31,382 nt of DNA from a virus. Shown one piece after another: positions 17,282 through 19,642 of the stretch. Position 1 is the stretch's first letter. The number at the start of each line of letters is the position of its first letter. The position numbers were made by a program, and so were the translations under genes. The DNA lies in IMG/VR virus record IMGVR_UViG_3300005842_000035, positions 1 to 31,382 of that record; one strand, 5' to 3'. Under the pieces are notes generated by a model. That model searched no databases. It saw only the letters and a list, made by a program, of their open reading frames with translations, and was not told where the DNA came from.

Positions 17282-17965
17282 TCATGCTGATTCCCCCATC
17301 GGCAGCACCATCTGATCCAATCTTCGGGCTGCGATCTCGCAGTACGCTTCGCTGATCTCGATGCCGATGCAGCGGCGACCTGTGTCACGCGCCGCTACGG
17401 CAGTCGTCCCTGAGCCGATGTAGGGATCGAGGATCAGGTCACCCGGCTGGCTGTAGTAGTCGATGAGCCAGCGGATCAGGGCGACAGGCTTCTGTGTCGG
17501 GTGGACACGACTCTCGCCGCGCTCCGTGCCTTTCATGAGGCCGATCCACTGGTGCCGCAACACACGGACGGGTCCGCCGATGTTCGTCCAGATCAGTTCC
17601 GCGTCGGCGTTGTCGTTGAACCCGAGCGCCCGATCTGATCTCAGGTTCGCCACCTTGTCCCAGACAAGCCACGATGGCGACTCTGGCAGGCGGCTGGCGA
17701 AGTGGTTGCCGCCGAATAGGATCAGGCGAGGGAATCGCAGCAGCAGAGACGGGTCATATGGCTCACTGTCGCCGTGTACGGGGGCGTAGTCGTTTGCCAG
17801 CGCAAGCGCACCGCGCTTGCGCTGGTGATTCGCCGTATCGAGCGAGATACCGTACGGCGGGTCAGACAGCGCCAGATCGACGCTGTCGGCCTCGAGGGTG
17901 GGCAACACGTCTCGGCAGTCGGCGTGATAGATGACGATGCCATCTCTCTCGAAGTACGGCTTCAC
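17282..17965 (-). CDS. Beta-class DNA N4-cytosine/N6-adenine methyltransferase
   Basis: 227 residues. Motif IV SDPPYGI (residues 34-40) is the catalytic DPPY of amino-methyltransferases. The SAM-binding motif I equivalent DPYIGSGTT lies near the C-terminus (180-188), preceded by HPTQKPVALIRWLIDY. The order IV before I defines the beta class. There is no partner restriction gene of known type. Phages use such enzymes to mask sites from host restriction or to regulate expression. Whether adenine or cytosine is methylated cannot be read from this. It is the last gene of the leftward operon and converges with the HTH gene 20 bases away. Length is near the minimum for the family. Confidence 0.9.
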   Translation of the reverse strand: MKPYFERDGIVIYHADCRDVLPTLEADSVDLALSDPPYGISLDTANHQRKRGALALANDYAPVHGDSEPYDPSLLLRFPRLILFGGNHFASRLPESPSWLVWDKVANLRSDRALGFNDNADAELIWTNIGGPVRVLRHQWIGLMKGTERGESRVHPTQKPVALIRWLIDYYSQPGDLILDPYIGSGTTAVAARDTGRRCIGIEISEAYCEIAARRLDQMVLPMGESA

Positions 17966-18010: not shown

Positions 18011-18364
18011 TCAGAGCAACCCCCAACGCAATACTTCCCAGTCCTGGGGCCGCACGATCCGAGCGTCCACACCGGGGACGGTGCTCAGATGGTCGATGGC
18101 CTCCTGTTGCTCTGGGCGGACTCTTCCACGAGCCTTCTTGAGTTCCCAGAACCACAAGCGGCCCGGTCGTTTCGGATGCCAGAACGTCAGATCAGGCACG
18201 CCTGCCGTAGTCCGCTTCATGATCGGGAACGTCCACACGACGTACCCGAGCGATGCCAACGTCGCCTTGACCTGACGCTGGAACGCTGCCTCGGACATCG
18301 CCAGCAGCACCGGCGAGATCGTCGTCGTGCCGGCTGCTCGGGCGGCGGTCACCGTCTTACTCAC
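18011..18364 (-). CDS. VRR-NUC domain nuclease
   Basis: 117 residues from a GTG overlapping the methyltransferase stop (GTGA). The core AGVPDLTFWHPKRPGRLWFW followed by ELKKARGRVRPEQQEAIDHL is the VRR-NUC signature: PD..., then ExK, the PD-(D/E)xK metal site. Stand-alone VRR-NUC proteins in phages are thought to cleave branched DNA such as Holliday junctions or flaps. Its N-terminus (MSEAAFQRQVKATLASLGYV) is the usual helix before the fold. It lies between two methyltransferase genes. Confidence 0.88.
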   Translation of the reverse strand: MSKTVTAARAAGTTTISPVLLAMSEAAFQRQVKATLASLGYVVWTFPIMKRTTAGVPDLTFWHPKRPGRLWFWELKKARGRVRPEQQEAIDHLSTVPGVDARIVRPQDWEVLRWGLL

Positions 18365-19463
18365 GGCCACACTCCAAAGGCGCGAAACCAGAGTGCTCGC
18401 AAGGCGGCTTCGGCTTGCTGTGGCACAACGGCGTTGCCGAGTCCGCGCAGTCGGTCCACCCGGTTCGCAGTCCCATGAGCGCCTCCACGAACCGCTCGTT
18501 CAATTGCAGGGGCGAGGTCGGGGTACTGGGCGAGGTAGGCTGCCCATCCGTCTCGGTCGTCAGGTCCGGGTGGGAATCCGGGCCAATCACTGCTCGGACG
18601 GCCTGCCGTCCGAGCAGTCCATTCGTCGGCACATCCGCATCCGCACAGGCTCCGTCCTTCCAGTCCCGTACCGTTGGCGTCGCCCAGGCTTTCGCCTGTC
18701 CCCGCAACAGCAACTCCCCTCGGCGGGCACCTGAGCGGCTCAGGTGCCCGCCCGTCGTGTCGGCCACGCTCGGCGTCTGCCATTGCCGCGCAGGAGACTG
18801 CGCGGCAATGGCGAGCGGAACGCCCGCGCCATTGCCGTTGTGATGCTTCTCCTTCAGTAGAACCGCCCGAGTTCGCCATGTCTCTGGCTGCTCGCCATCG
18901 TTCGGGTTCATGGCTGCCGGCGTCGGCCAGTTGCGTCCAGTCCCACGCGAGCAGCCACCAGCGGTCACGGCTATGAGTCGCGCCAATGTCGGCTGCTTTG
19001 AGACAGCCCCACTCCGCATCGAACCCGCTTTCGGCCAGCGATCCGAGTACGGCGTCGAGTCCTCGAACAGTGATTGCTGCGACGTTCTCCAGAAAGACGT
19101 AGGCTGGTCCCACGTCGCGAATGAGTCGCATGAGATCAAAGAAGAGTCCAGACCGTTCGGCGTGGATGCCGCCCCCCTTGCCGGCCAGCGAGAGGTCTTG
19201 ACAGGGGAACCCTCCGACCACCATGCCGACACGGCCGCTGAGAGCGTCTGTGGGGACCGTACGTACGTCTCCCCAAACAGGTGCGGCATCCAACTCGCCC
19301 GACTCCATGCGAGCCGCCAGAGTCGCCACAGACGGGATTTCCCTCTCCACGTAGAGGAGGCAGCGAGCATCTGGAAACACTCGTCCGATGGCGACATCAA
19401 GGGCGCCGATTCCAGAGAAGGCAGAGACGTAGGTAGCAGGGACTTCGGCACGTACAGCCACAC
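18357..19463 (-). CDS. Second full-length reading frame through the C5 methyltransferase gene (368 codons)
   Basis: A frame offset by two bases, starting at its own GTG and running past both ends of the methyltransferase. Its product carries a pattern I know from phage/metagenomic proteins associated with cytosine methylases: SDRWPKAGSMRSG, repeated W-x-TP elements (WPTPAAMNPND, WATPTVRDWKDG), GLLGRQA, and the ending LNERFVEALMGLRTGWTD. These correspond base-for-base to conserved parts of the real methylase (for instance WATPTVRDWKDG and LGDANGTGLEG are one DNA segment). So it may be a genuine overlapping gene, or a conserved artefact forced open by codon bias. No ribosome site distinguishes it. 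Translation is undecided. Confidence 0.3.
   Translation of the reverse strand: MWLYVPKSLLPTSLPSLESAPLMSPSDECFQMLAASSTWRGKSRLWRLWRLAWSRASWMPHLFGETYVRSPQTLSAAVSAWWSEGSPVKTSRWPARGAASTPNGLDSSLISCDSFATWDQPTSFWRTSQQSLFEDSTPYSDRWPKAGSMRSGAVSKQPTLARLIAVTAGGCSRGTGRNWPTPAAMNPNDGEQPETWRTRAVLLKEKHHNGNGAGVPLAIAAQSPARQWQTPSVADTTGGHLSRSGARRGELLLRGQAKAWATPTVRDWKDGACADADVPTNGLLGRQAVRAVIGPDSHPDLTTETDGQPTSPSTPTSPLQLNERFVEALMGLRTGWTDCADSATPLCHSKPKPPCEHSGFAPLECGRE
18361..19461 (-). CDS. dcm: DNA (cytosine-5) methyltransferase
   Basis: 366 residues from GTG. Motif I FSGIGALD (15-22), catalytic motif IV GGFPCQDLSLAGK (Cys87), motif VI ENVAAI (125-130), motif VIII-like THSRDRWWLLA and motifs IX/X ending DRLRGLGNAVVPQQAEAALR are all present and in order. 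The variable target region between is low-complexity with recurring ADA elements (QLADAGSH, MADAERGR, LGDANGTG), typical of phage enzymes. It transfers methyl groups to cytosine C5, probably to protect phage DNA. The same DNA carries a complete second frame (18357-19463). GTGA coupling to the nuclease downstream. Confidence 0.92.
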   Translation of the reverse strand: MAVRAEVPATYVSAFSGIGALDVAIGRVFPDARCLLYVEREIPSVATLAARMESGELDAAPVWGDVRTVPTDALSGRVGMVVGGFPCQDLSLAGKGGGIHAERSGLFFDLMRLIRDVGPAYVFLENVAAITVRGLDAVLGSLAESGFDAEWGCLKAADIGATHSRDRWWLLAWDWTQLADAGSHEPERWRAARDMANSGGSTEGEASQRQWRGRSARHCRAVSCAAMADAERGRHDGRAPEPLRCPPRGVAVAGTGESLGDANGTGLEGRSLCGCGCADEWTARTAGRPSSDWPGFPPGPDDRDGWAAYLAQYPDLAPAIERAVRGGAHGTANRVDRLRGLGNAVVPQQAEAALRALWFRAFGVWP

Positions 19464-19465
19464 TG

Positions 19466-19642
19466 TTAGCCCCCGCCCTGCTCAGTCGGCGGCACGGCTT
19501 CGAGTGCCTCCTCCAGTTGCTCCAGGTAGGCCGCTGGCAGGATCACGACCCGGTGCCCGTCGAACACGGGGTAGGTGATCGGATCTGAGGCCGCGTGGAT
19601 CAACGCCCATGCCGCCTGGGCCAGCCGGTCGGTGTCGGTCAT
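19466..19642 (-). CDS. Small hypothetical protein (58 aa)
   Basis: The start MTDTDRLAQAAW at 19642 makes an ATGA overlap with the zinc-finger gene upstream, and the end falls a few bases before the methyltransferase start. A helix (TDRLAQAAWALIHAA), a short beta hairpin (FDGHRVVILPAAYLEQL) and an acidic end. No family recognised. Confidence 0.55.
   Translation of the reverse strand: MTDTDRLAQAAWALIHAASDPITYPVFDGHRVVILPAAYLEQLEEALEAVPPTEQGGG

Follow-up and report, generated by a model that had tools for sequence, protein, structure and literature searches.

The C5-cytosine DNA methyltransferase gene of the virus record analysed here (IMG/VR record IMGVR_UViG_3300005842_000035, the whole 31 kb of which is referred to as the window) was found to be open in two frames over its full length, and both proteins appeared, as judged from sequence comparisons, to be preserved by evolution in hundreds of related viruses. 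Our preferred reading is that these frames, called A and B below, probably code for the subunits of one C5 methyltransferase, split in the manner of M.EcoHK31I, with overlapping starts and serving self-modification; no expression, binding or activity data are available to support it. Polypeptide A would be the large subunit, with C5 methyltransferase motifs I-VIII and X, and B would be a genuine second protein that begins 2 nt upstream, is encoded in the +1 frame and ends in the missing motif IX. Since B carries the piece that A lacks, the two polypeptides probably work together, associating into one active DNA methyltransferase like M.EcoHK31I, which the phage would probably use for modification of its own DNA against host restriction. 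Translation of B in the window phage, its association with A, the need for B in methylation and the anti-restriction use are inferred. The kind of enzyme is ordinary, split C5 methyltransferases having precedents; what is unusual is dual coding over the full length, in many phages and largely without annotation.

Both frames are on the minus strand of the 31 kb record. Frame A (18361-19461, minus), the proposed large (alpha) subunit, codes for a C5-cytosine DNA methyltransferase of 366 aa with a GTG start. Frame B (18357-19463, minus), the proposed small (beta) subunit, codes for 368 aa, also from a GTG, and is shifted by +1 relative to A. It displays no internal stop, and its terminal stop lies 4 bases past that of A. 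An earlier, sequence-only reading of this DNA had already reported two complete overlapping frames at this place, and both ORFs are indeed present. The start codons overlap as GTGTG (19459-19463, minus), B starting at 19463 and A at 19461, the GTG of A thus being 2 nt downstream of the GTG of B (GTGTGGCT). Since the upstream ORF ends with TAA at 19466, A and B may use one common ribosome-binding site. The same start overlap was encountered in Acidovorax phages Alfacinha1/3 (ATGTGGCT). The overlap had previously been assigned to the target-recognition region, which proved too narrow: it spans nearly the whole methylase gene, and motif IX is found in frame B.

Neighbours on the minus strand are an N6/N4 methylase, a VRR-NUC protein (with a match slightly under the Pfam cut-off), RecT, a primase zinc-ribbon protein and an HNH protein. 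At its start, the VRR-NUC-like ORF (18011-18370, minus) shares a few bases (18357-18370) with the 3' ends of both A and B, which makes these bases common to three frames. The N6/N4 DNA methylase (17282-17965) adjoins the locus and, given its presence, DNA modification in this phage probably involves two enzymes.

The identification of frame A as a C5 methylase, first made from FSGIGALD, GGFPCQ, ENV and GNAV, was confirmed by matches to PF00145 (1.1e-25) and phrog_363 (3.6e-50). The Pfam match is restricted to residues 12-174 and ends at PF00145 profile position 162 of 324; likewise, M.HhaI residues 16-170 align with A residues 13-172. Frame A displays FSGIGALD, GGFPCQD, ENV, SRDRWW and GNAVVPQ, and catalytic motifs I, IV (PCQ), VI (ENV), VIII and X satisfy what is required of a C5 enzyme. 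Inspection of the A sequence did not reveal motif IX (L-T-P-x-E-x-x-R-L-Q-G-F-P), and relatives of the window type are likewise devoid of it in A.

Frame B matched phrog_1008 'DNA methyltransferase' (2.3e-19), as did all 65 B sequences of alignment A3; no match was obtained for it in Pfam, NCBIfam or among PDB sequences. Its conserved core (residues 111-160, SFATWDQPTSFWRTSQ...DRWPKAGSMRSG...; 18984-19133, minus) overlaps motifs VI-VIII of A. Two beta hairpins are predicted there, with a local pLDDT of about 79-87 that is lower at residues 131-140, and A synonymous identity among relatives reached up to 0.89 against 0.27 expected. A W-x-TPT repeat segment (18654-18689, minus), previously noted for its two readings, does read LGDANGTGLEGR in A and WATPTVRDWKDG in B by direct translation, and its T-P columns are almost invariant in 97 B sequences. 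The motif-IX-like segment (B residues 321-338, LNERFVEALMGLRTGWTD; 18450-18503, minus) reads in A as part of ...AIERAVRGGAHGTANRVDR...; it is modelled with a helix at 323-330 (pLDDT about 85-91), and A synonymous identity among relatives amounted there to 0.88-0.98 against 0.3 expected. Taken as a whole, the AlphaFold2 models of B were of low confidence (mean pLDDT 58 for relative L119 and 55 for the window), the two beta hairpins and the motif IX helix being the only locally confident parts, and a Foldseek search of the window B model against PDB gave no match. A separate fold of B is not demonstrated by these predicted models, and folding of B with A is neither supported nor excluded by them.

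The sequence-only reading had left two alternatives, a conserved overlapping gene or a conserved out-of-frame artefact. According to the latter, B would have no product, its similarity would stem from the A amino acids together with codon bias, and the error would have been copied in databases. Some records do annotate B as a methylase and, when the window was scored with a profile of B relatives, synonymous shuffles of A still reached about 54 bits, a part of the similarity being forced. Yet the B similarity was far above this synonymous-shuffle null, with 137 bits for window B against 54 +/- 12 and a maximum of 86.5 in 500 shuffles. Part of the motif similarity is thus forced by the A amino acids and most of the score is not. 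Considering what shuffled A sequences score, the motif list alone, previously described as family-like, is weak evidence. Permuting the synonymous codons of A introduced 3.8 B stops on average, and B remained without any in only 0.44% of 5000 shuffles; the frame C control displayed 10 stops against 11.5 expected from the A shuffles.

A synonymous-shuffle null, keeping the A protein and codon usage, was applied to 21 A relatives with identities of about 25-45%. In 19 of the 21 (the exceptions being L023 and L025), the similarity of the B frame to that of the window was z=6-16 above this null. The aligned B stretches were nearly stop-free even in 47% GC contigs, stops being mostly encountered outside the aligned region. 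No close relatives of the window were found in the collections searched, and the constraint on its own copy was measured only against distant relatives. An artefact of A amino acids and codon bias was ruled out by the shuffle nulls and the depletion of B stops. As stop depletion was observed in frame B only and the codon-position pattern was reversed in places (see below), the artefact is a very improbable explanation of B; what remains of it is that misannotation does exist in databases (Alfacinha1/3 and W5_chr3).

A first large set of relatives was collected with a query consensus composed from B motifs, which inflated conservation at those motifs. The dual-coding argument rests not on that set but on sets ascertained through A, among them T1 (74 ORFs) and T2 (77 ORFs), collected via the A N-terminus only. 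T1 displayed 2.05 B stops against 6.70 expected. The longest open B segment began at A codon 0-1 in 73 of its 74 ORFs, with a median cover of 98% of A, and the usual two B stops were boundaries, namely the terminal stop and the TGA immediately 5' of the B ATG (start overlap ATGAATGAG). In T2, where B begins later within A, B stops amounted to 4.25 against 7.64 expected. Frame C stops were not depleted in either set.

Synonymous sites followed the extent of B. In T2, identity at A fourfold sites was 0.30-0.32 upstream of the B start (0.28 expected), rose to 0.6-0.9 in several blocks within B and was 0.29-0.35 past the B stop. In T1, where B starts with A, A fourfold constraint was seen from the first codons (0.75 against 0.33); flanking ORFs of similar divergence displayed a fourfold identity of 0.33 against 0.28 expected. 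Codon positions behaved accordingly: in the T1 block TWVEWLMGWP (B reading), differences at A positions 1/2/3 were 0.32/0.15/0.15, against about 0.19/0.08/0.65 in T2 regions coding for A only, and in some blocks the A third position, which is the B second, was the most conserved and the B third the most variable. Only translation of B, together with selection on it, would be expected to produce such a reversed pattern, which is taken as a sign that B is translated. Pairs of relatives are not independent, so these contrasts are descriptive and given without p-values, the weight resting on the within-gene controls. For T2, the data merely suggest that B has a fixed start and a ribosome-binding site, ATG occurring at one site in 39 of 73 and SD-like motifs numbering 25 against 13 expected. 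As the synonymous sites of A were over-constrained only where B extends, and codon positions displayed a B-frame pattern, A and B qualify as a dual-coding pair, and this evolutionary test establishes dual coding at the level of comparative sequence data.

Conservation beyond the A amino acids is nucleotide-level by construction, and it could also reflect constraint that acts on the nucleic acid itself, such as a recombination site or a structured RNA, instead of a protein. The constrained span, however, follows the B ORF boundaries, the B third position varies freely (a block from the second overlapping family, described below, behaves in the same way), and B can be aligned with gaps at the protein level across diverged A. 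This explanation is hardly credible.

Stand-alone B was not encountered, either among viral loci of the B-motif-collected set, where A overlaps B in 80 of 80, or in prokaryotic genomes, at any of the 10 loci where B was located (of 14). That B homologues should always overlap a methylase had been proposed beforehand as a refutation; this was what we observed (80/80 and 10/10), yet it did not refute B. The two other outcomes that would have counted against B were not observed, B stops being depleted in A-collected relatives and the excess of constraint at A synonymous sites being large. Together, this excess and the B stop depletion in relatives collected with A only speak for the conserved overlapping gene.

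The C-terminal consensus of B, LNxxFVExLMGxxxGWTD, resembles the motif IX missing from A. Its most conserved piece in relatives is LNPxWVEWLMGxPxGWTDL, and the window motif LNERFVEALMGLRTGWTD displays E and R at sites where most relatives have P. In L025, an ordinary C5 relative, motif IX is found in frame A (RRLTPVECERLQGFPDGWTDL). When scored with profiles of the A-frame and B-frame forms in 283 distinct genes, motif IX occurred in B only in 204, in A only in 48, in both in 2 and in neither in 29, and profiles of both forms did not detect it in frame C of any of the 283. Mutual exclusion between A and B was thus observed across these genes (Fisher p = 2e-31), the two genes with both being L302 and L131, the latter having an A ORF that continues into the B reading. 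The B-form profile recognised 46 of 50 A-frame motif-IX genes at 4 bits or more; a profile of the IX-X segment gave no methyltransferase match against PDB. In several actinophages, A ends after motif VIII and B bears IX and X; in other actinophages, IX and X are both in the A frame.

M.EcoHK31I and M.EaeI are bacterial restriction-modification enzymes, M.EaeI being similar to M.EcoHK31I as a two-polypeptide C5 methyltransferase. In M.EcoHK31I, too, the gene for the small subunit lies within that for the large subunit and uses a different frame; its product is about 176 aa long. The window pair differs in that it is a phage gene and that B (368 aa) covers all of A. It resembles M.EcoHK31I (YGGCCR), where motifs I-VIII and X belong to the larger subunit and only IX is on the smaller polypeptide (PMC3404938), by its large polypeptide with I-VIII and X and its motif IX on a second one. 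Motifs are split over two polypeptides in M.AquI (CYCGRG) as well, but its small subunit bears both IX and X (PMC3404938), whereas motif X of the window (GNAVVPQ) is in frame A. An M.AquI-like arrangement, with IX and X on B, was found in mycobacteriophage Isiphiwo (gp85/gp84), Streptomyces phage Euratis (gp33/gp34) and Arthrobacter phage KBurrousTX (gp79/gp80). At the AquI-like loci L273, L274, L275 and L086, SEA-PHAGES records annotate two adjacent methylase genes. The phrog_1008 profile, which matches window B, joins B content to motif X and thus corresponds to the AquI-like form; neither its description nor that of phrog_16143 ('DNA methyltransferase') mentions an overlap.

A single chain with motif IX could also arise by programmed frameshifting from A to B and back to A. 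The occurrence of the IX segment and X in the same frame in actinophages would fit, as would three metagenome contigs (L131, L171 and L136) in which a frameshift joins the A ORF to the B reading; these contigs are real variants or assembly errors. Two shifts would be required, however, since X is in A; moreover, B is provided with a start of its own (ATGAATGAG in T1), and the constraint on it sets in at the start codon, a long way 5' of the IX segment. We regard frameshifting as improbable.

Database records of the A/B pair were mixed, the underlying sequence pair being real. A tblastn search with B matched ten phage records and, in five annotated ones, the match was out of the annotated methyltransferase frame. 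The B frame is annotated as a gene in Acidovorax phages Alfacinha1/3 (L001 and L002), under the label 'cytosine-specific methyltransferase', and in Salmonella phage W5_chr3 (L009); in these phages the true methyltransferase motifs are in the other, also open frame, which the records omit. Paenibacillus phage Bloom has a nested +1-frame pair like that of the window, BLOOM_56 and BLOOM_57 (L445:974-2029 and 1176-1880), both annotated 'DNA cytosine methyltransferase'; it differs in that B starts well inside A and not, as in the window, 2 nt before it. A direct description of the A/B overlap was not found in the literature searched. In L189 and L092, both from contig 3300043331_001744, the methyltransferase gene was seen to be interrupted by an insert resembling a LAGLIDADG homing endonuclease (GLIDGEG), which is read in frame B.

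Single-chain C5 methyltransferases, many of which have motif IX in A, were found to hold a second overlapping family in their +1 frame. This family, B', matches phrog_16143. Its sequence reads ...SLSDVLETxxVPxKYYLSPKACxGILRRAEKRGKxLPxxLxxAL, and its loci are L282-L340 (group T3) and L360-L439 (group T4), e.g. L310:2143-2718 and L340:2092-2691. Among 74 A-ascertained ORFs, the B' motif was present in 54 and the B motif in none. For block ILRRAERRGK of B', the differences amounted to 0.66/0.36/0.21 at A positions 1/2/3, with a fourfold identity of 0.95 against 0.27 expected. As many of these enzymes keep motif IX in A, B' cannot serve to supply it, and motif IX supply is not the whole reason for such ORFs; the partner frame has an additional role, or else B' was gained separately.

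Because of this mismatch, some room was kept for B being a real and selected protein that overlaps A without being a methyltransferase subunit (acting, for example, in regulation, in the stabilisation of A or against host defence), B' being equally constrained in enzymes with motif IX in A. This remains unlikely, since motif IX occurs in one or the other of the two frames and nearly never in both, M.EcoHK31I and M.AquI provide precedents, and the AquI-like phages have IX and X both on B. Alongside the split enzyme that we favour for the window, a broader proposal can be made only tentatively, its chances being somewhat below even: in several large groups, almost every phage C5 methyltransferase would carry a conserved +1 partner, older than the motif IX split, which supplies motif IX in one class and has another role in B'.

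To our knowledge, long same-strand overlapping genes have rarely been proven in prokaryotes and their viruses. Here, searches with A only brought together far more than a hundred copies that show joint selection on two full-length frames, with internal controls within the same genes. The A/B overlap also accounts for a set of mis-assigned 'methyltransferase' records. When frame A is cloned or synthesised alone, above all after codon optimisation, its partner would be destroyed and the enzyme may be dead. If our preferred reading is correct, M.EcoHK31I would turn from a single biochemical curiosity into an example of a widespread phage arrangement.
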